Assembly (NCBI RefSeq): GCF_004353525.1
Contig: NZ_CP085524.1
Coordinates: forward strand, 816,001 to 880,000
Reading direction: 5' to 3'
Length of the DNA stretch: 64,000 nucleotides
DNA from: Zhaonella formicivorans
Lineage (GTDB): Bacteria > Bacillota > DUOV01 > Zhaonellaceae
Position 1 is the first letter of the stretch, and the number at the start of each line of letters is the position of its first letter. The notes beneath the pieces are model-generated. The model was given only the letters and a program-made list of their open reading frames with translations, made no database searches and had not been told where the DNA came from. Below, piece after piece: positions 42,286-57,011 of this stretch. A program made the position numbers and the translations under genes.

Positions 42286-42312
42286 TTTGTTCCAATGGGA
42301 AGGAGGAGAAGC

Positions 42313-44493
42313 ATGAGTGATTTTGATAAGATTTACGAAGGCGCTATAGTAGCGGGTCAAGAGCCGAAAAAACTATTTCAGCAGGTTTATGATGGAGCGG
42401 TGATAGCTACCAGTTATGCTGAAATTCTTTTAAATCAAGCGATACGTCTGTATGGCGAAGATGCCGCTATTGGTTACCCTGATACGGCATACTTCCTGCC
42501 TGTTATTCGCTCCCTCAGCGGGGAAGAAGTTACGAAACTCGGACAGTTAGTGCCAATTTTAAACAGGATGCGTCACCAGGTGAGGTCCGAACTGAATTTT
42601 GAAAATGCCAGGCTTGCTGGTGAAGCTACACTTTATGCAGCTGAAATTATTGAAGCAATAAGGTATTTGCGAAAGGACTCCATGGCTGTTGAACCCTGGA
42701 CAGGTTTTTTGGGGGATCCGGTGTTACGGAAGTATGGCATAAAAATGGTTGACTGGACAATTCCCGGTGTGGCGGTGATCCTGGGAAGGGCTAAAGACAG
42801 CAAAGCCGCGAAAAAGTTAGTGGATGATTTAATGGGCAAGGGTATGATGCTGTTTCTAAGCGACGAAATCATAGAGCAGCTGCTGGAGGAAAATGTAAAG
42901 CTGGGAATTGATTATATTGCATTTCCCGTAGGTAACTTTACACAGGTTGTCCATGCCGCAAATTATGCTTTGCGGGCCGGAATGGCTTTTGGAGGCATAA
43001 CTCCTGGACTGCGGGAAGAGCATAGGGATTACCAGCGCCGCCGTGTTTTGGCTTTTGTATTGCACTTGGGCGAAAGAGATGAAGTTAAAACTGCAGCTGA
43101 AATGGGTTGTATTTTCTTAGGTTTTCCAGTCATCACAGATCAGGAACTGGAACCCGAGGAAACGATTAATGACTGGTACATCTCAGTTCCCGATTACGAT
43201 AAAATTGTGCAAACCGCTTTAGAAGTTAGAGGAATAAAATTAACTAATATTTCTATAGATATTCCAATCAACTTTGGTCCAGCTTTTGAAGGTGAAACCA
43301 TCCGCAAAAACGATATGTATATTGAAATGGGAGGTGGAAAAACACCTTCTTTCGAACTGGTGAGACGTGTTAATGAAGATGAAATCGAGGACGGTAAGAT
43401 TACGGTTATAGGCAGGGAAATGGATGAAATAGCAGAGGGAGAAAAATTGAGTTTCGGATTAATGGTCGATATCTACGGCCGTAAAATGCAGGATGATTTT
43501 GAAGGCGTTCTTGAGCGCAGAATCCACGATTTTATTAACTACGGCGAAGGACTCTGGCATACTGCACAAAGAGATTTAAACTGGCTGCGGGTTAGTAAAG
43601 AGGCAGTAGCCAAAGGATTCAAATTTAAGCATTACGGCGATATTTTAATTGCCAAGATGAAACAGGAGTTTCCAGCTATAGTAGATAGGGTCCAAGTTAC
43701 TATTATTAATGATCCTGCAGTGGTTGAAGAAAAAATTAAAATTGCCAGGGAACGTTATAAAGCAAGAGATGACAGAATGCGCGGCTTAACCGATGATGCT
43801 GTAGATACGTTCTATTCCTGTATTCTTTGTCAATCATTTGCTCCAAACCATGTTTGTATTGTAACTCCCGAAAGGGTAGGCCTCTGTGGTGCCGTATCCT
43901 GGTTGGACGCAAAAGCATCCTATGAAATCAATAATGCCGGTCCTAACCAGCCTATTGTCAAAGGTACCGCTTTAGACGATGTTAAAGGCATGTGGAAGAG
44001 CGTCAATGAATACCTGTACACTGCATCTAACCGTACTCTGGAAGAAGTTTACCTGTATACGCTGATGGATAAGCCTATGACTTCTTGTGGCTGCTTTGAA
44101 GCAATCATGGCTATTGTTCCGGAAGTGAACGGCATAATGATTACTACCAGAGAACACGGCGGCATGACTCCTTGTGGGATGACTTTCTCCACTCTGGCCG
44201 GTATGGTAGGCGGAGGAACTCAAACTCCCGGATTTATGGGTATAGGACGCAGTTACATTGTGAGCAAGAAGTTTATCACTGCCGACGGAGGGTTGTCCAG
44301 GATAATTTGGATGCCCAAAGAGCTAAAGGAATTCTTAGGGCAGGATTTGGTGCAGCGGGCCCTTGAAGAAGGCCTGGGAGAAGATTTTGTGGACAAAATT
44401 GCCGATGAAACTGTTGGTACCACAGTAGAAGAGATTTTGCCATTTCTTGAGGAAAAGGGACATCCGGCTTTAACGATGGAACCGCTTTTATAA
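42313..44493 (+). CDS. acsB: Acetyl-CoA synthase (CODH/ACS alpha)
   Basis: The 726-residue enzyme joins CO, a methyl group from the corrinoid protein and CoA into acetyl-CoA. The A-cluster ligands are visible as SCILCQSFAPNHVC, GLCGAVSWLDAKASYE and SCGCFEAI near residues 500-600. The N-terminal domain that binds CODH (FDKIYEGAIVAGQEPKKLFQ) is complete, so this is the full bacterial type. ATG 42313 is used because GGAAGGAGG is directly upstream; an ATG at 42295 precedes that site. Confidence 0.97.
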   Translation: MSDFDKIYEGAIVAGQEPKKLFQQVYDGAVIATSYAEILLNQAIRLYGEDAAIGYPDTAYFLPVIRSLSGEEVTKLGQLVPILNRMRHQVRSELNFENARLAGEATLYAAEIIEAIRYLRKDSMAVEPWTGFLGDPVLRKYGIKMVDWTIPGVAVILGRAKDSKAAKKLVDDLMGKGMMLFLSDEIIEQLLEENVKLGIDYIAFPVGNFTQVVHAANYALRAGMAFGGITPGLREEHRDYQRRRVLAFVLHLGERDEVKTAAEMGCIFLGFPVITDQELEPEETINDWYISVPDYDKIVQTALEVRGIKLTNISIDIPINFGPAFEGETIRKNDMYIEMGGGKTPSFELVRRVNEDEIEDGKITVIGREMDEIAEGEKLSFGLMVDIYGRKMQDDFEGVLERRIHDFINYGEGLWHTAQRDLNWLRVSKEAVAKGFKFKHYGDILIAKMKQEFPAIVDRVQVTIINDPAVVEEKIKIARERYKARDDRMRGLTDDAVDTFYSCILCQSFAPNHVCIVTPERVGLCGAVSWLDAKASYEINNAGPNQPIVKGTALDDVKGMWKSVNEYLYTASNRTLEEVYLYTLMDKPMTSCGCFEAIMAIVPEVNGIMITTREHGGMTPCGMTFSTLAGMVGGGTQTPGFMGIGRSYIVSKKFITADGGLSRIIWMPKELKEFLGQDLVQRALEEGLGEDFVDKIADETVGTTVEEILPFLEEKGHPALTMEPLL

Positions 44494-44520
44494 ATTAATT
44501 TATGAAGGGAGAGGAAAAGA

Positions 44521-45858
44521 TTGGCACTGTCAGGTTTAGAGATTTACAAACAACTACCCAAAAAGAATTGCGGTGAATGCGGGCCTCCAACCTGTTTGGC
44601 ATTCGCTATGGCTTTGGCTGGAGGCAAGGCTTCTTTGGATAGCTGCCCCTATGTTACCGAGGAAGCCAGAGCTAACCTGGAATCAGCTTCTGCTCCGCCT
44701 ATTGCTAAAATAATAGTCGGAACCGGTGAAGCAGCCGTTGAGCTGGGAGACGAAACTGAACTATTCAGGCACGATAAGAAATTCTACCATGAGACAGCTG
44801 TTGCCGTTACGGTCAGTGATGCGCTGGAAGAGCAAGCATTGAGCGACAGGATTAAGGAGATTAGCAACCTTACCTTCACCCGGGTTGGATTACAATATAA
44901 AGTTCAATTGCTTGCAGTACAAAATGATTCCGGATCCCCCGAAAAATTTACGGCTGCAGTACGTCAAGCGCAGAGTGACAGTTCCTTGGCCCTTGTTTTA
45001 ATAAGCAGTAATCAAAAAGCTATGGAAGCTGCCTTAGCTGTTGCCGGCAAGGAAAAGCCACTGATTTATTGTGCCACTGCAGATAATTATGAGGCCATGA
45101 CTAATTTAGCCAAAGAGTATAGTTGCCCGCTGGCAGTCAGAGCGGAAAATTTGCATGATCTGGCCGGCCTGGTGGAGAAAATTACAGCTTTAGGTCATAA
45201 ACATCTGGTTTTAGATCCTGGTCCCGGTGAGTTGTCCAAAGCAATTGCCGATTTTACCCAAATTCGTAGACTGGCGATTAAAAAACGGTTTAGACCATTC
45301 GGTTATCCCATCATCGCTTTTACTAGCGCAGAAGATCCAACGGAAGAGTCTTTGGAAGCAGCCGTCTACGTCAGCAAATATGCAAGTGTTGTAGTTATGA
45401 ATACAATTGCTAGAAGCGCTTTTTTACCGCTACTATCCTGGAGACAAAACCTATACACTGACCCGCAAGTTCCGATTAAAGTTCAGGAGAATCTCTACGC
45501 GGTGGGCAATGTTACCGATAATTCACCTGTTTATGTTACGACCAACTTTTCCTTGGCGTATTATTCCGTGGAAGGTGAAGTAGAAGCCAGCAAGATACCC
45601 GGGTATATTTTAGCGGTAGACACCGATGGTTTATCTGTGTTAACTGCTTATGCCGATGGCAAATTTGAAGCGGAAAAGATTGCTGCTGTCTTAAAGAAAC
45701 TGGGGGTAGAGGAAAAAGTTAAGCACCGTACTTTGGTAATTCCCGGTTTAGTGGCGGTCTTAAGCGGTAAGCTGGAAGAACTTAGCGGGTGGAAAGTCAT
45801 GGTAGGCCCCAGAGAAGCTTCGGGAATTACTGCTTTTGCCAAAGCCCATTTTGCATAG
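44521..45858 (+). CDS. acsC: Corrinoid/iron-sulfur protein large subunit
   Basis: The 445-residue gamma subunit carries the 4Fe-4S cluster that keeps the corrinoid cobalt reduced; the cysteines are in NCGECGPPTC and the following SCPY (about residues 17-42). The rest is a TIM barrel and a C-terminal corrinoid-binding domain. Start TTG at 44521 with a GGGAGAGG ribosome binding site. It works with AcsD to carry the methyl group from AcsE to AcsB. Confidence 0.96.
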   Translation: MALSGLEIYKQLPKKNCGECGPPTCLAFAMALAGGKASLDSCPYVTEEARANLESASAPPIAKIIVGTGEAAVELGDETELFRHDKKFYHETAVAVTVSDALEEQALSDRIKEISNLTFTRVGLQYKVQLLAVQNDSGSPEKFTAAVRQAQSDSSLALVLISSNQKAMEAALAVAGKEKPLIYCATADNYEAMTNLAKEYSCPLAVRAENLHDLAGLVEKITALGHKHLVLDPGPGELSKAIADFTQIRRLAIKKRFRPFGYPIIAFTSAEDPTEESLEAAVYVSKYASVVVMNTIARSAFLPLLSWRQNLYTDPQVPIKVQENLYAVGNVTDNSPVYVTTNFSLAYYSVEGEVEASKIPGYILAVDTDGLSVLTAYADGKFEAEKIAAVLKKLGVEEKVKHRTLVIPGLVAVLSGKLEELSGWKVMVGPREASGITAFAKAHFA

Positions 45859-45867
45859 GAGGCTGAA

Positions 45868-47736
45868 ATGGAAATCTGTTCGGTTACTTTTCTGCCTGAT
45901 AATGTGACTGTGAAAACCGAACCAGGAATTACTATTGCTGGGGCAGCCCGGTTAGCCGGCATTGAATTAAAAATGCCGTGTGGTGGCGAAGGTTCTTGCG
46001 GCAAGTGCGTTGTTAGACTTACTAAAAAGGGGACCACGGAGGAGCTTCTGGCCTGTCAAACCATAGTTTACGAAGATATCTTTGTAGAAGTTCCGCAAAA
46101 TGTCAGGCTAGGCGAGCATCAGATTTTACTGGCTGAAACAGAACAAAATTTTCAAACCAAATACGACTTTGAACCTTTATGCCAAAAAGTAGCCGTCAGG
46201 CTTTCTCCGCCTTCTCTCTATGAAAACGCCAGCGATTGGACACGTTTAAGCTGCGAACTCAGTAAAGCAGTTGGAGGGAAGGAAGTTGTGCCCAGCTTGC
46301 CGGTTTTGCAAAAAATGGCTCATCTACTGAGGAAATCCGACTGGCACGTAAGTGCGCTTCTCGTGGCCCAAAATGGTTTTTATGAATTGATTGACCTTCA
46401 GCCAGGAATGGCGACAGAAACAATTTATGGTCTTGCCATTGACATCGGAACAACAACAATTGTTATTTACCTTGTTGATTTGGTCAGTGGTAAAGTATTG
46501 GGCAAAGCCGGAACTTACAATAAACAAGCAGCTTACGGGGACGATATCATTACCCGGATCATTCACTGCCAATCGCCAAAGGGTTTGAAACAATTGCACG
46601 ATGCTGTAATAGACAGCATTACTGAGCTTACAGAGCAATTGTTAGCTACCTCCCAAGTTGTCGGTTCCAAGGTTTATGTTATTACAGTAGCAGGCAATAC
46701 AACAATGATCCATTTGTTCTTAGGAATGGATCCAAAATTCATCCGTTTGGATCCTTACATTCCTACTGCGGCCCAATTCCCGATAGTGAAAGGAAAGGAA
46801 CTTGGACTGGAAACCACACCGGAGGCCTGCGTTTATTGCTTACCGGCTGTTGGTAGTTATGTTGGCGGCGATATTGTAGCCGGGGTACTAAGTACGGGTA
46901 TGAACTGGGCGGATAATCTTACGCTGTTCATTGATATCGGTACTAACGGCGAAATTGTTTTAGGCAATAAAGAATGGTTAATCAGCTGTGCTTGTTCAGC
47001 GGGACCGGCTTTTGAGGGCAGTGGTATCACCTGTGGCATGCGGGCCATGCAAGGAGCTATTGAAAGAGTTGAAATTAATCCTGTCAATTTCGAAGTGCGT
47101 TACCAGACAATAGAAGGAACTCCTCCTGCAGGGATTTGTGGTTCCGGTTTAATTGATTGTATTGCAAAACTACATCGGGTGGGCCTGATCGACAGGGCCG
47201 GTAGGTTTTGCGAACTCGATAAACCGGTGGAAAGGCTAAGAAAAACCGATGAAGGAAAGGAGTTTGTCCTTGCATGGGATTGGGAAACAGCCCTTGGAAA
47301 GGATATAACACTTACTGAAGGGGATATCCAAAACTTGATTCGGGCTAAAGGAGCAATTTTTGCTGGAATACAATGCCTTTTAAAAACTGTGCAGTTGGAT
47401 TTCTCCAGCTTGGAACGGATTTACATTGCCGGTGGGTTCGGCAATTACCTAAACATTGCTGATGCCATTGAAATAGGCTTATTGCCGGATCTGCCGCATC
47501 ACCTGTACCGGTTTGTGGGTAATACTTCAGTCCGGGGAGCATATTTATCTCTAATTTCACAAACGGCACTAAATGCAGCTACTGAGATTGGCAAGAAGTT
47601 GACATATTTAGAATTATCCGCAGGCAACAATTTTATGGAAGAATTCATTTCAGCTCTATTTTTGCCCCATACGAATCTAGAACTGTTTCCCAATGTAAAA
47701 TCAACAACAGTAGTGAGGGGTGGCAATAGTGACTAA
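45868..47736 (+). CDS. acsV: Corrinoid protein reductive activator (RACo-like, 2Fe-2S + ASKHA/DUF4445)
   Basis: The 622-residue protein has an N-terminal 2Fe-2S ferredoxin domain (MPCGGEGSCGKCVVRL and LLACQT, residues about 36-73) and a C-terminal ASKHA-type ATPase domain (YGLAIDIGTTTIVIYLVD, VAGNTTMIHLFLG, FIDIGTNGEIVLG, YIAGGFGNYLN). RACo uses ATP to reduce inactive Co(II) of the corrinoid protein back to Co(I). The gene sits between acsC and cooC as in other acetogens, 9 bases after acsC. The name acsV follows acetogen usage. Confidence 0.92.
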   Translation: MEICSVTFLPDNVTVKTEPGITIAGAARLAGIELKMPCGGEGSCGKCVVRLTKKGTTEELLACQTIVYEDIFVEVPQNVRLGEHQILLAETEQNFQTKYDFEPLCQKVAVRLSPPSLYENASDWTRLSCELSKAVGGKEVVPSLPVLQKMAHLLRKSDWHVSALLVAQNGFYELIDLQPGMATETIYGLAIDIGTTTIVIYLVDLVSGKVLGKAGTYNKQAAYGDDIITRIIHCQSPKGLKQLHDAVIDSITELTEQLLATSQVVGSKVYVITVAGNTTMIHLFLGMDPKFIRLDPYIPTAAQFPIVKGKELGLETTPEACVYCLPAVGSYVGGDIVAGVLSTGMNWADNLTLFIDIGTNGEIVLGNKEWLISCACSAGPAFEGSGITCGMRAMQGAIERVEINPVNFEVRYQTIEGTPPAGICGSGLIDCIAKLHRVGLIDRAGRFCELDKPVERLRKTDEGKEFVLAWDWETALGKDITLTEGDIQNLIRAKGAIFAGIQCLLKTVQLDFSSLERIYIAGGFGNYLNIADAIEIGLLPDLPHHLYRFVGNTSVRGAYLSLISQTALNAATEIGKKLTYLELSAGNNFMEEFISALFLPHTNLELFPNVKSTTVVRGGNSD

Positions 47737-48481
47737 ATATATAGCAGTGGCTGGTAAAGGCGGAACAGGTAAGACCACCTTTACTGCACTGCTCATCAAG
47801 TACTTATCGGCAAACAATAAAAAAGCAATCCTGGCTGTAGATGCAGATCCTAATGCTAATTTAAATGAAGCTTTAGGGCTGAATGTTGAATTTACCATCT
47901 CCGATATTCTTAACGAATTAAAAGATCCGAAAGCAGTTCCCGCTGGCATGACCAAAGATATATTTGTAGAATATAAGCTTTCCCAATCTATTATTGAAAC
48001 GAAGGACATTGATTTACTCGTGATGGGCGGTCCGCAGGGGCCTGGTTGCTATTGTTACGCTAACGACTTACTGCGCAAACACCTTGAAACTTTAGGTAAA
48101 AATTATGAATACGTTATTGTGGACAGCGAGGCCGGCCTGGAACATATTAGTAGAAAAACCATTCCCAGAGTGGATACGTTGTTTGTAATCAGTGATTGTT
48201 CAGCCAGGGGTATTCGTTCCGCGGGCAGGGTATACCAACTGCTGAAAAGCTTAAATAATCAAGTAGGTTTAGTTCAACTTGTTGTCACCAAAGTCAATGA
48301 GGAACAGCTCAAAGAATTGGAACAGGAAATTGTACAGACTGGCTTGGCGTTAGGGGGAACAGTGCCATTCGATCCTATGGTAATAGAGTTTGATGTGCAG
48401 AGCAAGCCCTTAATATCTTTACCCGAAGCAAGCCCAGCAGTACAGGCAGTATTTCAGCTTTTACACGCCTTGGAAATATAA
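47729..48481 (+). CDS. cooC: CooC/AcsF-type nickel-insertion ATPase, second copy
   Basis: The 250-residue MinD-like ATPase has GKGGTGKTTF at residues 9-18, DADPNANLNEALG after it, and a CxC pair in GPGCYCYAN. It is the copy embedded in the acs operon, so it may serve acetyl-CoA synthase maturation (AcsF) or CODH. GTG 47729 is preferred, 7 bases after GAGGGGT; the frame-mate GTG at 47720 overlaps that site. It overlaps acsV by 8 bases. Confidence 0.9.
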   Translation: MTKYIAVAGKGGTGKTTFTALLIKYLSANNKKAILAVDADPNANLNEALGLNVEFTISDILNELKDPKAVPAGMTKDIFVEYKLSQSIIETKDIDLLVMGGPQGPGCYCYANDLLRKHLETLGKNYEYVIVDSEAGLEHISRKTIPRVDTLFVISDCSARGIRSAGRVYQLLKSLNNQVGLVQLVVTKVNEEQLKELEQEIVQTGLALGGTVPFDPMVIEFDVQSKPLISLPEASPAVQAVFQLLHALEI

Positions 48482-48523
48482 ATGTTGGAATGGCAATATT
48501 TAGCCAGTGAAAGGAGAGTTATG

Positions 48524-49495
48524 ATGGCGGTTGAAATTTTTAAGGAGAAAAACAGAAGCGCAGTATTGGAAGTTGTTCTAGGTGCAACCCGCGAACAAGG
48601 CGGTACGAGGACCCATACCATTACCGTCGGCGGTGATTCTGCGCTTCCTTTTTACCATTTCGAAGGGGAAATACCTAACAGACCGGTAGTTGCCATGGAA
48701 GTGCAAGATATAGTCCCTGAATGGAATAATGCTTTGATTAAACACTTTGCCGACGTGATCGACAAACCTGGTCTCTGGGCAAAAAAATGTGTGGAAGAAT
48801 ATGGAGCGGACCTTGTGTATTTAAAATTGGACGGAGCACATCCTGATGGCGCTAACCGTTCTGTAAGTGAGTGTGTACAAACGGTGCAAGAAGTGTTGGC
48901 CTCCGTGGGAGTACCTTTAATTGTAGTAGGCTGTGAAGAAGCTGATAAAGATAAAGAACTGATGGAAGCAGTTGCGGAGGCCGCAGCTGGAGAAAATCTG
49001 CTTTTGGGTTGTGCTGAAACAGATAATTACAAATCTTTAACGGCTGTTTGCATGGTTCATAAGCACAACATCATTGCCAGATCTCCGCTGGATATTAACA
49101 TGTGTAAACAGTTGAATATCTTGATTAGTGAGATGAACTTGCCTTTGCATAAAATAGTTATCGACCCTTCTATAGGTGGTTTAGGTTATGGAATAGAATA
49201 TGCTTATTCTATTCTGGAAAGAGCGCGGATAGGTGCTTTGCAAGGTGACAAAATGCTGTCCATGCCCGTAATCGCCACTGTAGGCTACGAGGCTTGGCGG
49301 ACGAAAGAAGCTACCGCTTCTACCCAAGAGTTTCCCGAATGGGGTGACCAGGAGGAGAGGGGAATTCTATGGGAAGCCACCACAGCTAGCGCCCTATTGC
49401 AGGCAGGAGTGCATATTCTCTTAATGAGGCATCCGAAAGCGGTAGCTTTAGTGAAAAAGCAAATTGATCAGCTGATGGTTTCAAATAAGTATTAG
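48524..49495 (+). CDS. acsD: Corrinoid/iron-sulfur protein small subunit
   Basis: The 323-residue delta subunit is a TIM barrel that binds the corrinoid at its interface with AcsC. Signature segments are [43 protein letters not shown] and [17 protein letters not shown] 48524 is selected, 7 bases after AAGGAG; an ATG at 48521 and a frame opening at 48482 are alternatives. The next gene, acsE, donates the methyl group. Confidence 0.95.
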
Positions 49496-49512
49496 AAACT
49501 TAATTAAATTGA

Positions 49513-50325
<813 letters not shown>

Positions 50326-50342
50326 GCATCAGCAAGTAGAGT

Positions 50343-50390
50343 AGACCTGATTTCCAGTTAATTCTGGGAGTCGGGTCTTTTCTTTTTTGA
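50343..50390 (+). terminator. Terminator of the acs operon
   Basis: AGACCTGA (50343-50350) pairs with TCGGGTCT (50371-50378), one G-U pair, with an inner CCAG/CTGG extension, followed by TTTCTTTTTT. Confidence 0.8.
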
Positions 50391-50617
50391 CATAAAGGTT
50401 TAAAATTTAGTCAAAAGACAAAATATTTTGTTATCTTTAACCATAGAATTCTTTCTTGTAACTAACAATTTTTTTTTGTAAATTGTATTGTTTATTGCCG
50501 GGATAGAAAGGAGAATTTCAATAGCAAGAGAACACATAAAGTGGAGAAAATCCGTTAATTGTAAATTTTCGGAACAAAGCTGTAAGCAAAGATAAGGGCT
50601 GATAGGGAGGAAGAGGG

Positions 50618-52210
50618 ATGGAAAACAAATTCAAAGAATCACTGTTGGATAAGAATACCCTGTCTGTAACTTGGGAACTGGTACCCGGAAGGGGAGCTAG
50701 GGAGCAGCAGCAGGAAAGCGCTCTGGCAGCTGCGGAGCAAGCAGCTCAAGGCAATAAGGTGCATGCCCTTACTATTACCGATAACCCTGGTGGCAACCCA
50801 GCCATGCTTGCGGATTATTTGGGCATGGAGATTTTAAAATTAGGTATCGAACCTTTGGTTCATTTTACCTGTAAAGATAAAAGCCGCAACCAGATGGAGA
50901 GTCAGTTATACGCCCTCGACAGAGCAGGTGTAAGAAACTTGCTGGTTATGACCGGTGATTATCCTGTTACCGGTTTTAAAGGAAGATCCAAACCGGTCTT
51001 TGATTTGGATCCCATCCATACCTTAGAGTTGATTGGTCAAATGAACGAAGGTTTGGTAGTACCAGGCCTTAAAGGGCCGATTAAGTTTCAGCCCAGTGAT
51101 TTCTTTGCAGGTGCTGCTGTTTCACCATTTAAGGCAACCGAAGCGGAACAGATGATCCAGTATTTTAAATTAAAAAAGAAAGTGGATGCCGGCGCACAAT
51201 TTATTGTTACCCAAGTAGGCTATGATGCTAGAAAATTTCATGAGGTACTGCAGTTTGCCAAATTAGCCGGAATTAATGTTCCCATAGTGGGCAATATTTA
51301 CATTTTGCCCTATGGAGCGGCAAAAACCATGAATGCTAACAATATCCCCGGTTGCGTGGTAACAGACAAATTATTGGCAGAAATTGATAAAGAACGGACC
51401 GCTCCTGATAAAGGGCTTGAGGCACGGCTCTTGCGTGCTGCTAAAATGTATGCATTTATGAAGGGAATGGGCTTTGCCGGAGTGCATATTGGCGGTCACA
51501 ACATTAAATACGAGCAAGTGGAGTTCATTATCGAGAAAGGTGAGGAATTGAGCAAAAACTGGCTGGATTTGGTCCACGAATTCGATTATCCGCAGCCTAA
51601 TGGATTTTACTACTTTGAGCGGGATCCCGAAACAGGACTGAATACTGACAGACCAGTAAATAGAGAAAATCTTCCTCTGGATGCGCCTGTTCATTTTGTA
51701 TACAAAATGTCCCGTTTCGTGCACAAAATGATTTTTGAACCAGGCAAAAATTTCTTTGGTCTAATGCAAAAGATCTCTAATGCTGTAGAAGGTTCATCGG
51801 TGGAAAAAGCTTTTCATGGTTTTGAGCATATTAACAAAGTAATGCTCTATGACTGCAAGGATTGCGGCGACTGCGCCTTGCCGGATTTAGCCTATGTGTG
51901 TCCCATGTCGCAATGTCCTAAAAATCAGCGAAACGGAGCCTGTGAAGGCAGCTACAATGGCTGGTGTGAAGTTTACCCCAATGAAAGAAAATGCGCTTGG
52001 GTAAAAGCCTATGCCAGATTGAAACAATACAAAGAGGAAAGTCAATTAGACGCTTATCGTGTTCCACCATGCAACTGGGATTTGTACCAAACTTCTTCTT
52101 GGATTAATTTCTATCTTGGCAAAGACCACTCCGCGGAGCGGTTGGGTATTAAGAAGCCTGAAAAGAAAAAGCAAGCGACTGAGCAAAATAAAACTTCAAC
52201 TTCAGCTTAA
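50618..52210 (+). CDS. metFV: Fused methylenetetrahydrofolate reductase MetF-MetV
   Basis: Residues 1 to about 310 of this 530-residue protein are an MTHFR TIM barrel (LSVTWELVPGRGAREQ, ALTITDNPGG, LLVMTGDYP, GAQFIVTQVGYDARKF). Residues about 375-520 hold the MetV-type / PF12225 domain, rich in cysteine (CKDCGDC, YVCPMSQCPKNQRNGACEGS, WCEVYPNERKCAW), which binds an iron-sulfur cluster or zinc. In Moorella these are separate genes; here they are one. The enzyme makes methyl-THF, the AcsE substrate. It has its own leader 290 bases after acsE, and GGGAGGAAGAGGG precedes the ATG. The hyphenated symbol reflects the fusion. Confidence 0.9.
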   Translation: MENKFKESLLDKNTLSVTWELVPGRGAREQQQESALAAAEQAAQGNKVHALTITDNPGGNPAMLADYLGMEILKLGIEPLVHFTCKDKSRNQMESQLYALDRAGVRNLLVMTGDYPVTGFKGRSKPVFDLDPIHTLELIGQMNEGLVVPGLKGPIKFQPSDFFAGAAVSPFKATEAEQMIQYFKLKKKVDAGAQFIVTQVGYDARKFHEVLQFAKLAGINVPIVGNIYILPYGAAKTMNANNIPGCVVTDKLLAEIDKERTAPDKGLEARLLRAAKMYAFMKGMGFAGVHIGGHNIKYEQVEFIIEKGEELSKNWLDLVHEFDYPQPNGFYYFERDPETGLNTDRPVNRENLPLDAPVHFVYKMSRFVHKMIFEPGKNFFGLMQKISNAVEGSSVEKAFHGFEHINKVMLYDCKDCGDCALPDLAYVCPMSQCPKNQRNGACEGSYNGWCEVYPNERKCAWVKAYARLKQYKEESQLDAYRVPPCNWDLYQTSSWINFYLGKDHSAERLGIKKPEKKKQATEQNKTSTSA

Positions 52211-52535: not shown

Positions 52536-53366
52536 GTGAACGCTGAAGAGAAAAAGGCGTTAGAACGGGACATACTTGAGCTGACCGACAGGTTTATTGA
52601 ACAAACTATTCAACTGGGGGATCAGGAAAAAAAAGACAGCAATGAATATGAAAAAACTTTGGAAGGAGTAAGAGAACTTATTGAGAAACTGTCTTTTTAT
52701 TTATCGGGGAAAGAGGAACACCTGGAAGAGCTACTGCGTCAATTGACCAGGCAAAAATTACCTGATCAGCGCGTATTAACCAGTTTCAACAACTTTTCCT
52801 GCACTCTGAACGATTTAATCGAACAGGGACTTGCATTGTACAAAAAGAACAAAATGGTGATTTTAAACCAATCTCCTTCAGATTTAACAGAAAAAATTGA
52901 TATAACTCCGGAGCCCGAGCCAGAACAACAAGTTGAAGAAGAGACTGATTGCTCGGGAACAGCTGATACTGGTTCCCAGCCTTTACTAGCTGCGGACCTA
53001 GGAATTGTAGAGGAAGAAGGCAAAGACGAGCTTGAGTCTACTGTGGAGAATAGCGAAGAAACAGATACAGAAGAAACAGATACATTGGAAAAAATATTGC
53101 GTCAGATTTTCAGGGGCAAGACTCTAGTAAAAAATTATAAATTACATGGCATTGAGCTGAAGTATTATTTCCCGGATTTACAATTGGCAGTGGAAAAAAT
53201 CCAAAACGCAACTCCCCATAACACTGTCTGGAAAGAGTATCATTGCTCCAGAGCGGGTATTACTTTGGTAAGAATTTCCGATGAAGAAATGAGCTACTAC
53301 CGAAGGGTAAGCAGGTATTTAAAACGTGTTCTCTCACCGGTAAATACTTCTGCAGCTGCGGAATAA
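52536..53366 (+). CDS. Uncharacterised acidic protein with possible nuclease-like C-terminus
   Basis: I do not recognise the 276-residue protein as a whole. Residues 1-110 are predicted helical and charged. Residues about 115-190 are very acidic and low in complexity (PEPEPEQQVEEE, SEETDTEETDTLE), a likely linker. Residues about 190-265 form a compact domain with KLHGIELKYYFPDLQLAVE and later EYHCSRAGITLVRISDEE. That spacing resembles the Vsr/DUF559 branch of PD-(D/E)xK nucleases, where a PEL..LAIE strand is followed by an R...Gi.viRi strand; however the K of E-x-K is not in place, so it may be inactive. GTG start after AAGAGGTG. It stands alone ahead of the T-box. Confidence 0.55.
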   Translation: MNAEEKKALERDILELTDRFIEQTIQLGDQEKKDSNEYEKTLEGVRELIEKLSFYLSGKEEHLEELLRQLTRQKLPDQRVLTSFNNFSCTLNDLIEQGLALYKKNKMVILNQSPSDLTEKIDITPEPEPEQQVEEETDCSGTADTGSQPLLAADLGIVEEEGKDELESTVENSEETDTEETDTLEKILRQIFRGKTLVKNYKLHGIELKYYFPDLQLAVEKIQNATPHNTVWKEYHCSRAGITLVRISDEEMSYYRRVSRYLKRVLSPVNTSAAAE

Positions 53367-53383
53367 ATATTAAATAAAAATTG

Positions 53384-53412
53384 TTGACTTGCAGTTCAAG
53401 GCCTGCTATAAT
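53384..53412 (+). promoter_or_regulatory. Promoter of the T-box operon
   Basis: TTGACT (53384-53389) and TATAAT (53407-53412) with 17-base spacing, about 30 bases before the T-box leader. Confidence 0.75.
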
Positions 53413-53439
53413 CATTTTAAATATATAATTGTAACAACT

Positions 53440-53667
53440 ATGCAGGAGAAAAGTAATTTGCTGAATCCTTACAGAGAGTCGGTGGTTGGTGAAAACCGGC
53501 AGGAATAAGCAAATGAAGCCACTCCTAAGTTGCAGGCTGAAAGAAGTAAGCTATGCCGGTAGTCCCGTTACGACTAAGCCATTAGGCACTAAGTTGGGTT
53601 AATACCAATTAGGGTGGTACCGCGGGTAATCTCTCGTCCCTTACAGGGTTGAGAGATTTTTTATTTT
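53440..53667 (+). ncRNA. T-box leader, probable alanine (GCC) specifier
   Basis: The T-box core GGGTGGTACCGCGG is at 53612-53625. Stem I shows AGAGAG (53473-53478) and the apical GGTTGGTGAAAACC. On the 3' side of stem I, GAAGCC-ACTCCTAAG has the layout of known specifier loops (specifier followed by ACTTCCTGAG-like sequence), which puts GCC, an alanine codon, at 53518-53520. The leader ends in a terminator: AATCTCTC (53628-53635) with GAGAGATT (53651-53658) and a T run. Uncharged tRNA-Ala would bind and switch the leader to the antiterminator, turning on the regulator and aminotransferase genes. The specifier is read by analogy. Confidence 0.88.
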
Positions 53668-53695
53668 AAAAATGTCGTTAAGGAGGGTGAGTTAT

Positions 53696-54178
53696 TTGCG
53701 GCAGGCGATTTTAAGAATACTGGAAAGAAACTCCAGACTTTCTTCCGAGGACATTGCCAAGATGCTGGATCTAAGTCCCCAGGATGTGGAACGTGAAATC
53801 AAAGCATTGGAAGAAGAAAAGATAATTTTAAGTTACGGTACATTAATCAACTGGGAAAAAGCAGGCGAGGAAGTAGTTTCGGCGTTAATCGATGTTAAAG
53901 TTACCCCTCAACGTGATGTAGGGTTCGATCAAGTTGCGGAACGAATACAGCGTTTTCCTGAAGTGCGAGCTTTATACCTGATGTCGGGCACTTACGATCT
54001 TTCCGTGCTGGTAGAAGGAAAAAACTTAAAAGAAGTCTCTCAGTTTGTTGCGGAAAAATTGGCTACTATTGAGCATGTTCAAAGCACGATGACTCATTTT
54101 GTCTTAAAAAAATATAAACAAGCTGGAATCATTTTTGAAGATTATGAAGAGGATCGGAGGCAGGTGTTTACACCATGA
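53696..54178 (+). CDS. Lrp/AsnC family transcriptional regulator
   Basis: The 160-residue regulator has an N-terminal winged helix-turn-helix (ILRILERNSRLSSEDIAKML, DVEREIKALEEEKIILSYG) and a C-terminal ligand-binding alpha-beta domain (FPEVRALYLMSGTYDLSVLVEGKNL). It is a true AsnC-type protein, distinct from AhbA/AhbB in the heme cluster. TTG 53696 lies 8 bases after AGGAGGG (53681-53687); the frame-mate ATG at 53672 precedes that site. Its stop overlaps the aminotransferase start (ATGA), so the two are translated together. Confidence 0.85.
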   Translation: MRQAILRILERNSRLSSEDIAKMLDLSPQDVEREIKALEEEKIILSYGTLINWEKAGEEVVSALIDVKVTPQRDVGFDQVAERIQRFPEVRALYLMSGTYDLSVLVEGKNLKEVSQFVAEKLATIEHVQSTMTHFVLKKYKQAGIIFEDYEEDRRQVFTP

Positions 54179-55371
54179 AACTTGAGTTTGACAAAATCAT
54201 TTCTCCAGTAGTCAGGAACATCCCCCCGTCAGGAATACGCAGGTTTTTTGACCTAGTAGCCAACACGAAAGGGGTTATTTCCCTGGGAGTTGGGGAGCCG
54301 GATTTTGTGACACCCTGGCATATAAGGGAGGCGTGCGTTTACTCTTTGGAACAAGGTTATACCATGTATACTTCCAATTATGGAATGCCGGAACTTCGCC
54401 GCGAAATAGCCAACTATCTGAATAGGCAATATGAAGTTGAATACAATCCGGAAAATGAAATTATTGTTACGATTGGCGCAAGTGAGGCCGTGGATATTGC
54501 TTTACGCACTATTGTCACACCAGGCGATGAAGTTTTAATACCTGAACCCTGTTATGTTTCATACAAACCCTGTGCCGTTTTGGCCGGAGGTACTCCTGTT
54601 ACCATTAAGACTAATGCCAGCAACGGCTTTAAGTTAACTGCCCAACAATTGGAAGCCCAAATCACCCCTAAATCAAAGGTATTGATTTTATGTTACCCCA
54701 ATAACCCGACGGGTGCCATTATGACTAAAGAAGAATTGTTGGCAATAGCAAAAGTCGTAGAAAAGCACAACTTGATTGTAATTGCTGATGAGATTTACAG
54801 CGAATTAACTTATCAAGGAAAGCATACCAGCTTTGCTGCGTTACCCGGGATGCGCGATCGGACTATTCTTCTGAACGGTTTTTCGAAGGCATTTGCTATG
54901 ACCGGTTGGCGCGTTGGGTATGTCTGCGCTCACCAGGAATTAATCAGCGCCATGGTTAAGATCCACCAATATACCATCTTATGTGCTCCTGTGATGGCAC
55001 AAAAAGCTGCAATTGAAGCATTGCGCAACGGTCGGGTTCAGGTGGAGCACATGGTTAGCCAGTATAATTACAGACGCCGTTTAATTGTTTCCAGGCTAAA
55101 TGAAATAGGATTGGATTGTTTCGAGCCAAAAGGCGCTTTTTACGTCTTCCCCTCAGTGGCTATAACCGGAATGTCGTCGGAGGAATTTGCTGAGAACCTC
55201 CTTAAAGAAGAAAAGGTTGCTGTTGTGCCCGGTACCGCATTTGGTGAAAGCGGAGCAGGCCACATCAGAATATCCTATGCGGCATCTATCCAGCAAATAA
55301 CAGAGGCTTTGAACCGCATGGAAAGCTTTGTGCAGAGGCACAGCAAAAAAATAGCGGTCAACAGCTTTTAA
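54175..55371 (+). CDS. Class I/II PLP aminotransferase, probably alanine-related
   Basis: The 398-residue fold-type I aminotransferase has ISLGVGEPDFVTPWHIREA, TIGASEAVDIALR, CYPNNPTGAIM, ADEIYSELTY, the PLP lysine in GFSKAFAMTGWRVGY, and the C-terminal arginine in AGHIRISYA. These belong to the aspartate/alanine/aromatic aminotransferase group. Substrate choice is not readable from the sequence, but control by an alanine-specific T-box suggests it forms alanine. A paired AsnC regulator supports a role in amino acid supply. Confidence 0.88.
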   Translation: MKLEFDKIISPVVRNIPPSGIRRFFDLVANTKGVISLGVGEPDFVTPWHIREACVYSLEQGYTMYTSNYGMPELRREIANYLNRQYEVEYNPENEIIVTIGASEAVDIALRTIVTPGDEVLIPEPCYVSYKPCAVLAGGTPVTIKTNASNGFKLTAQQLEAQITPKSKVLILCYPNNPTGAIMTKEELLAIAKVVEKHNLIVIADEIYSELTYQGKHTSFAALPGMRDRTILLNGFSKAFAMTGWRVGYVCAHQELISAMVKIHQYTILCAPVMAQKAAIEALRNGRVQVEHMVSQYNYRRRLIVSRLNEIGLDCFEPKGAFYVFPSVAITGMSSEEFAENLLKEEKVAVVPGTAFGESGAGHIRISYAASIQQITEALNRMESFVQRHSKKIAVNSF

Positions 55372-55430: not shown

Positions 55431-57011
55431 ATGGCTAATTTGAAATTTTACGGTGCAAGCAGAATGGTCACCGGTTCTTGTTATTTGCTTGAAGCGGGCG
55501 GTTTAAAAATATTAATCGACTGCGGCATGTTTCAAGGCTCCAAAAGCCTCAAAGAACGAAATTATGGGGATTTCCCTTTTTCCCCTGCAAGTATTGATTA
55601 CCTTATCTTAACACATGCTCATATAGATCATAGCGGCCTGATCCCTAAACTTTGTAAAAATGGTTTTCAAGGCCAGGTTATTACTACCAAAGCTACTGCG
55701 GAACTGGCTTCTGTTATGCTGCCCGACAGCGGCTATATTCAAGAAATGGAAGTAGAACGAAAAAACCGCAAGTATGCCCGGGCGGGAAAGCCGTTGATTA
55801 AACCTATTTATACGGCTGAAGATGCCCGGGAGTGCCTAAAGTTTTTTAAAACTGTCGAATATAATCAGCAGTTGAGCCTATCCCCGGAAATAACCTTACG
55901 CTTTCAGGACGCAGGTCACATTTTGGGGTCCGCCATGGCTGAAATCTGGGTAAAAGAGCATAATAATGAATTTAAGATTGTCTTTTCAGGCGACATAGGC
56001 AATTATAACCAGCCAATAATCAGAGATCCGGCAACTATCTTGGAAGCGGACTATGTTGTCATGGAATCGACCTATGGCAATAGGCTGCATGAGCACAACG
56101 AAGACAAATTAGACATGCTGACCGGCATAATCAAGGAGACTTTCTCCAGAGGCGGTAACCTGATCATCCCTGCTTTTGCAATTGAAAGAACGCAGGACCT
56201 GCTTTACGATTTAAATATTCTTTTACAACGGGGCGCCATATCCCCTCAAGAGATTTATATTGATAGCCCGTTAGCTATTGCGGCAACTGAAATCTTTTGC
56301 CGAAACACCGCCTACTATGATGAAGATACAATACGCCTGCAGGAAGCAAAAGGGGACTGTCCTTTATATTTTCCGGGGTTGCATTATACCATGACAACCG
56401 AGGAGTCGATAGCCTTAAATAAAATTAAAGGCGGGGCAATTATTATTTCTGCCAGTGGAATGTGTGATGCGGGGAGAATTAAGCACCATCTTAAACATAA
56501 CCTGTGGCGTCCTGAATCGACTATTTTATTTGTAGGCTATCAAGCCCAGGGCACATTAGGTAGAAGGATCCTGGACGGGGAAAAGAAGGTTACCATTCAC
56601 GGGGAAGAAATTGCAGTGAAAGCACAAATCAGGAAAATTGACGGTTACTCGGCCCATGCAGACCAGAGCGGTTTGTTAAGATGGGCTACCGCTTTTAAAA
56701 CTGTACCTAAACGCTATTTCATAACCCATGGCGAAGAAGATGCTTCGCTGACCTTTGCCAAGCTCCTGAACGAACGAATCGGGTCGGCAAGAACCGTGAT
56801 CCCGTCTTTGTTCGATGAGTATGTCCTTGGTGATGAAACGGTAACTGTGAAAGTTGAAAGTCCTTATCAAACGGCTGAAGAAATTCGGCACAAACTAAAT
56901 AATTTAATTGAACAGGAACTGCAACAAAATAATATTGAACAATTACAGCGATTATTGTGTAACTTAAACAAAATAATAGAAGATTACCAACAGGTATATA
57001 ACAAAGAATGA
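55431..57011 (+). CDS. MBL-fold RNase-type protein of the CPSF73/Ysh1 family
   Basis: The 526-residue protein has a metallo-beta-lactamase domain with HxHxDH as THAHIDHSGLIPKL (about residues 59-72), a beta-CASP insert, and the later motifs VFSGDIGNYNQ, VMESTYGNRLHE, IPAFAIERTQDLLY, ISASGMCDAGRIKHHL, VGYQAQGTLGRRI and YSAHADQSGLLRW. This is the RNA-processing exonuclease/endonuclease family YSH1/CPSF73, found in many bacteria. Its RNA target here is unknown. ATG 55431 is used (10 bases after AGGAGGA); the upstream in-frame opening at 55392 has no site. A C-terminal helical tail of about 45 residues (NNLIEQELQQNNIEQLQRLL) is additional. Confidence 0.9.
   Translation: MANLKFYGASRMVTGSCYLLEAGGLKILIDCGMFQGSKSLKERNYGDFPFSPASIDYLILTHAHIDHSGLIPKLCKNGFQGQVITTKATAELASVMLPDSGYIQEMEVERKNRKYARAGKPLIKPIYTAEDARECLKFFKTVEYNQQLSLSPEITLRFQDAGHILGSAMAEIWVKEHNNEFKIVFSGDIGNYNQPIIRDPATILEADYVVMESTYGNRLHEHNEDKLDMLTGIIKETFSRGGNLIIPAFAIERTQDLLYDLNILLQRGAISPQEIYIDSPLAIAATEIFCRNTAYYDEDTIRLQEAKGDCPLYFPGLHYTMTTEESIALNKIKGGAIIISASGMCDAGRIKHHLKHNLWRPESTILFVGYQAQGTLGRRILDGEKKVTIHGEEIAVKAQIRKIDGYSAHADQSGLLRWATAFKTVPKRYFITHGEEDASLTFAKLLNERIGSARTVIPSLFDEYVLGDETVTVKVESPYQTAEEIRHKLNNLIEQELQQNNIEQLQRLLCNLNKIIEDYQQVYNKE

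Follow-up and report, generated by a model that had tools for sequence, protein, structure and literature searches.

A T-box leader with an alanine specifier precedes an Lrp-type regulator gene and an aminotransferase gene, here called alaR and alaT, in the window, which is the whole 64,000-nt stretch of DNA that was analysed. The T-box is real and canonical and belongs to the transcriptional class. It very probably controls the alaR-alaT operon, with uncharged tRNA-Ala inducing the operon for alanine synthesis. Recognition of an alanine T-box in front of this pair was not found in the literature searched, and it is quite possibly listed in the main T-box catalogues (PMC2271356, PMC2650889) or in supplements (PMC3766115, PMC7778990). 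The accessible portions of PMC2494555, PMC3766115 and PMC7988955 do not mention it. No description of the two-layer arrangement, T-box plus Lrp-type regulator, was found in the searchable literature, the main catalogues aside. The novelty lies in this arrangement and in how firm and how widespread the assignment to alanine is.

The T-box leader and its alanine specifier

The leader runs from Stem I to the antiterminator at positions 53431–53644 (+ strand). It matches the Rfam T-box model RF00230 over its full length (model positions 1–219) with 139.8 bits (E 4.3e-31), the gathering cut-off being 93. The complete T-box claimed in a preliminary description was thus found where that description had placed it, but the start given there, 53440, is 9 nt late. 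Stem I (53433–53536, +; L001:1503-1606) was delimited with the Stem I model R1, among whose own rows is that of the window, and it forms the 5' domain of the minimum-energy structure. The specifier GCC (alanine), followed by A, lies at 53518–53520 (+). The antiterminator helix (53611–53641, +), located by Rfam alignment and folding, carries a bulge with UGGU at 53615–53618. An intrinsic terminator hairpin followed by a U run was identified by folding at 53628–53658 (+; −16.1 kcal/mol, z −3.9 against shuffles). Because it takes up the antiterminator's 3' half, the two hairpins are, by folding, mutually exclusive. The antiterminator on its own has a folding energy (−8.3 kcal/mol, z −0.08) no better than that of its shuffles, and the terminator hairpin is absent from the output of a simple terminator-pattern scan. 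Upstream, a consensus scan returned a promoter-like sequence at 53384–53412 (+), TTGACT-17 nt-TATAAT with an extended TG, which has 11/12 consensus matches; about one such site is expected in the region by chance.

The specifier had previously been read as GCC by analogy. The specifier columns of the Rfam alignment hold GCC in the window T-box and no other triplet. The host genome has 12 T-boxes, 11 over the Rfam cut-off and one below it (L012), and these were used as a calibration set. The same columns are readable in 10/11 of the other host T-boxes, and 10/10 agree with the amino acid of the downstream genes. The specifiers are AUC before ileS, CUC before leuS, ACC before thrS, GUC before valS, GGC before glyQ, UUC before pheS, UGC before cysE-cysS (cysE named by eye), UCC before a class-V aminotransferase and then the start of serA (both named by eye), GAC before hisS, where the agreement comes through aspS (by eye) behind hisS, and UUC before DAHP synthase, where the agreement goes no further than aromatic synthesis in general. 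The NCBIfam match of the class-V aminotransferase (L005) is below its cut-off (349 vs 650). As expected, the bulge base likewise differs between host T-boxes: those with Ser and Asp targets have UGGC, and the one in front of glyQ has UGGA. The T-box excluded from the readable specifiers (L012:1501-1758, 83.3 bits) precedes an ilvE-like gene (named by eye) and has an apparently enlarged Stem I; the R1 match there covered positions 29–78 only.

A tRNA-Ala(GGC) gene that matches the specifier is present in the host in one copy among the tRNA loci scanned. The scan covered 30/58 tRNA loci, neighbours included, and showed two tRNA-Ala genes with anticodon TGC and one each with GGC and CGC. The host tRNA-Ala(GGC) has discriminator A before CCA. 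Because the tRNA ends in A-CCA, the UGGU bulge of the window T-box fits it.

T-boxes of the pair were found at 39 of 107 sampled loci, window included. 39/39 specifiers encode alanine, 35 as GCC and 4 as GCA, a synonymous change, and 39/39 bulges have UGGU. In two of these T-boxes (L050, L143) the first specifier column of the model is a gap and the triplet was taken from the ungapped row. R1 was trained partly on rows of the pair's T-boxes; the Rfam alignment is independent of those rows and reads the window identically. All 39 Stem I sequences are distinct, and they do not represent 39 independent events because near relatives are included. Shifting the reading of the specifier loop by one base would give AGC (Ser) or CCA (Pro) in the window, and alternative specifier frames are reported for many T-boxes in the part of the TBDB paper available (PMC7778990). 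Over the 39 T-boxes the −1 frame would give Ser/Arg/Gly/Cys and the +1 frame Pro/Gln, and only frame 0 keeps one amino acid. In the 10 host paralogs whose specifiers are readable, these columns point to the correct amino acid. Another triplet as specifier is therefore nearly refuted, and the alanine reading no longer depends on analogy.

The gene pair and its neighbours

The first gene after the leader encodes an alaR-like regulator of the Lrp/AsnC family (53696–54178, +) with both an AsnC-type helix-turn-helix (PF13404, 32.5 bits) and a ligand-binding domain (PF01037, 66.5 bits). The open frame begins with ATG at 53672 (53672–54178). TTG at 53696 is the likelier start because AGGAGG lies at 53681–53686 and the ortholog alignment mostly begins about there. 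The regulator frame shares a 4 nt overlap with that of the second gene, which encodes an alaT-like class I/II aminotransferase of 398 aa (54175–55371, +; PF00155, 277 bits). The best NCBIfam match of the aminotransferase is NF005816/PRK07682 with 613.1 bits, just under the cut-off of 620. Two Bacillales aminotransferases beside the same regulator pass this cut-off (L151, 728 bits; L127, 744 bits), and three clostridial-type aminotransferases fall short of it (568–595 bits). 1/14 control genomes has a match over the PRK07682 cut-off; the count does not single out B. subtilis and was not used as evidence for it. A second host aminotransferase (L175) also has PRK07682 as its best NCBIfam, with 428 bits, far under the cut-off.

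The closest solved structures, 1gd9 and 1dju, are named aspartate and aromatic aminotransferase, so the aminotransferase sequence alone does not say alanine. The enzyme could have another main substrate, such as aromatics, aspartate or N-acetyl-diaminopimelate, in which case the alanine T-box would reflect alanine as donor only. Besides these structures, the second-best NCBIfam speaks for such a substrate; it is aminotransferase A (PRK07683), with 478 bits and a cut-off of 575 that is not reached. The host, however, has an LL-diaminopimelate aminotransferase, over its cut-off, and two proteins that best match aspartate aminotransferase (below cut-off), and these may cover those roles. The alanine specifiers in 39/39 T-boxes of the pair also weigh against another main substrate, and we regard it as quite improbable. 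The preferred reading is that the enzyme most likely makes alanine, since the alanine T-box and the pair recur in many related bacteria. This amounts to a well-supported substrate prediction for a family that NCBIfam labels merely "aminotransferase" and whose nearest structures are called aspartate or aromatic.

Directly upstream of the T-box is a 276-aa protein (52536–53366, +) that matches nothing in Pfam or NCBIfam at E 0.001. Relatives of this protein (E 1e-3 or better) occur in 11/106 other alaR loci (26 loci plus the best 80 of at least 588), which makes it a conserved unnamed family linked to the alaR locus. Farther upstream (42295–52210, +) is a Wood-Ljungdahl-type run with acetyl-CoA synthase-like, corrinoid protein-like, methyltransferase- and metF-like frames, all named by eye. 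This run suggests that the host is an acetogenic or CO/CO2-fixing anaerobe. A gene for a beta-CASP metallo-beta-lactamase RNase-like protein (55431–57011, +; PF10996, PF07521) begins 59 bases after alaT. It was considered as a third operon member and rejected. Its motif, searched for on the same strand anywhere in the retrieved locus, is present in only 3/80 related loci (the best 80 of at least 588), which places the gene outside the conserved unit. A pattern scan returned no terminator or promoter between alaT and the beta-CASP gene, so read-through from one into the other is possible in the host.

Distribution of the pair and of alanine T-boxes

Two samples of orthologous loci were compared. 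In the first, a regulator search of 61 genomes found matches in 37, from which 27 loci, window included, were kept. With at least 44% identity these are clearly separate from the other regulator matches, which have at most 34%. The second consisted of the best 80 of at least 588 confirmed regulator loci in genome contigs. The aminotransferase adjoins the regulator in 27/27 loci of the first sample and in 80/80 of the second (best 80 of at least 588).

The T-box is less widespread than the pair. It is present in 20/27 loci of the first sample; none was detected in the other seven (L059, L060, L062, L063, L066, which is partly masked, L067 and L068). Among the best 80 of at least 588 loci, 14/80 have a T-box over the Rfam cut-off and 19/80 have a Stem I recognised by a model trained on 24 such sequences, of which 14 belong to the gene pair and 10 to other host T-boxes. 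Taken over both samples (27 plus the best 80 of at least 588), 68/107 orthologous loci are without a detected T-box, so the pair does not depend on control by a T-box. At one alaR locus that lacks a T-box, the corresponding position is taken by a short terminator-like leader (L099:2070-2500, by eye), perhaps a remnant or another control.

Sampled lineages with an alanine T-box on alaR-alaT include Thermincola, Pelotomaculum, Desulfotomaculum, Syntrophomonadaceae, Heliobacterium, a Clostridium and their kin. A quick tree was made of 104 aminotransferases and two host paralogs. The paralogs are on long branches and the 104 orthologs lie within one tree, B. subtilis itself not being among the rows. 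The T-box label requires about 12 changes on this tree, compared with about 32 when labels are shuffled. T-boxes are scattered over the clostridial-type lineages and occur in none of the Bacillales/Paenibacillaceae branch (36 rows) or the Lachnospiraceae branch (13 rows). With an outgroup of two long-branch paralogs that meet, 41/103 inner branches are open with respect to gain or loss.

T-boxes were also sought before alaS. None was found with model R1 or Rfam at the host alaS locus, which was taken with flanks around the domain match. The alaS locus was obtained from 25/26 related genomes queried, and R1 detected a T-box before alaS in 5/25 (L185, L186, L187, L193, L196). Rfam, run on 20 loci, confirmed L185, L193 and L196, the only ones of the five in that set. 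Only an antiterminator-like core precedes alaS in L190 (partly masked), in L202 and, more weakly, in L189. A SAM riboswitch (L207:3389-3507, 88.6 bits) is present in an alaS-containing locus of a related genome. The readable alaS T-box specifiers, taken by eye, are GCC in L193, L196 and L186/L187 and GCA in L185. The available part of the TBDB paper gives specifier frequencies for alanine T-boxes of GCU 0.72, GCA 0.18, GCC 0.09 and GCG 0.01 (PMC7778990). GCC, rare in TBDB, was considered as the mark of a separate class formed by the alaR-alaT T-boxes. This idea was dropped, because the readable specifiers before alaS in this sample are likewise GCC or GCA.

Proposed control of alanine supply and comparison with known systems

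In the proposed mechanism, alanine shortage would lead the anticodon of uncharged tRNA-Ala(GGC) to pair with GCC in Stem I, and the 3' NCCA end of this tRNA would pair with UGGU in the antiterminator bulge. The antiterminator would be stabilised over the terminator, and RNA polymerase would continue into the regulator and aminotransferase genes. The aminotransferase would form alanine from pyruvate and an amino donor, probably glutamate. The Lrp-type AlaR would add a second, protein-level control, probably of its own operon.

The window aminotransferase is taken to be an ortholog of B. subtilis YugH, on the basis of the family score, the gene pairing and the order yugG-yugH in B. subtilis, where YugG is the regulator AlaR. 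AlaT (YugH) of B. subtilis is described as the major alanine-forming aminotransferase, whose loss causes partial alanine auxotrophy, in the available part of a paper that cites Sidiq et al. 2021 (PMC12893347). An earlier survey, as far as its text was accessible, treats AlaT as uncharacterised and compares it with the Pyrococcus enzyme 1DJU (PMC6522883), which is also among the best PDB matches of the window aminotransferase. The role of AlaT in B. subtilis, together with the gene pairing and family scores common to the window and the Bacillales, favours the alanine formation proposed in the preliminary description. The T-box does give a hint of the substrate, as had been proposed, but not the sole one, since orthology points to the same substrate. 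The same description regarded genes other than synthetases and transporters as unusual T-box targets. This overstates their rarity, because biosynthetic targets are common; in the host alone, T-boxes precede genes for DAHP synthase, the class-V aminotransferase/serA pair, cysE and the ilvE-like gene (names partly by eye).

Aminotransferases are reversible, and Lrp-type regulators often sense an amino acid. The T-box could accordingly be alanine-specific while the pair serves mainly alanine use or balance, as amino donor, nitrogen store or D-alanine for the wall, rather than net synthesis. Two alanine dehydrogenase-like genes, of which one was scanned and is over the alaDH cut-off, are present in the host too, so the aminotransferase need not be the sole source of alanine. 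Together with the second aminotransferase (L175), they speak against a unique role for it. Induction of a T-box on shortage of charged tRNA nevertheless fits synthesis and not breakdown, as does the partial auxotrophy on loss of alaT in B. subtilis. A role mainly in use or balance is unlikely, though somewhat less so than another main substrate, and synthesis remains the preferred reading. It suggests direct tRNA-charging control of alanine supply at the synthesis step in many Bacillota, and in the host this would operate without such control of alaS.

More tentatively, the pair may be under a two-sensor circuit, in which a tRNA-charging RNA is combined with an Lrp-type protein that is itself under RNA control. 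Such a circuit might be widespread in anaerobic Bacillota, lost or never present in the Bacillales and sampled Lachnospiraceae, and possibly not described before.

The RNA of the alaR-alaT leader is of an ordinary, well-known kind and leaves the understanding of T-boxes unchanged. Like other RF00230 T-boxes, the window leader has GAA-specifier-A in Stem I, the AGGGUGGUACCGCG antiterminator and a terminator hairpin, and it differs from them in nothing structural. T-boxes of alaS, one of which was studied in Clostridium acetobutylicum (PMC4695836), have the same tRNA specificity, whereas the target in the window is a regulator and an aminotransferase. As in the AlaR (YugG)/AlaT (YugH) pair of B. 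subtilis, an Lrp-type regulator adjoins a class I aminotransferase, an arrangement present in 107/107 sampled loci, Bacillales included. The PRK07682 family is the other point of likeness, the window enzyme being just under its cut-off. In contrast to the window, no T-box was detected at any sampled Bacillales locus of the pair.
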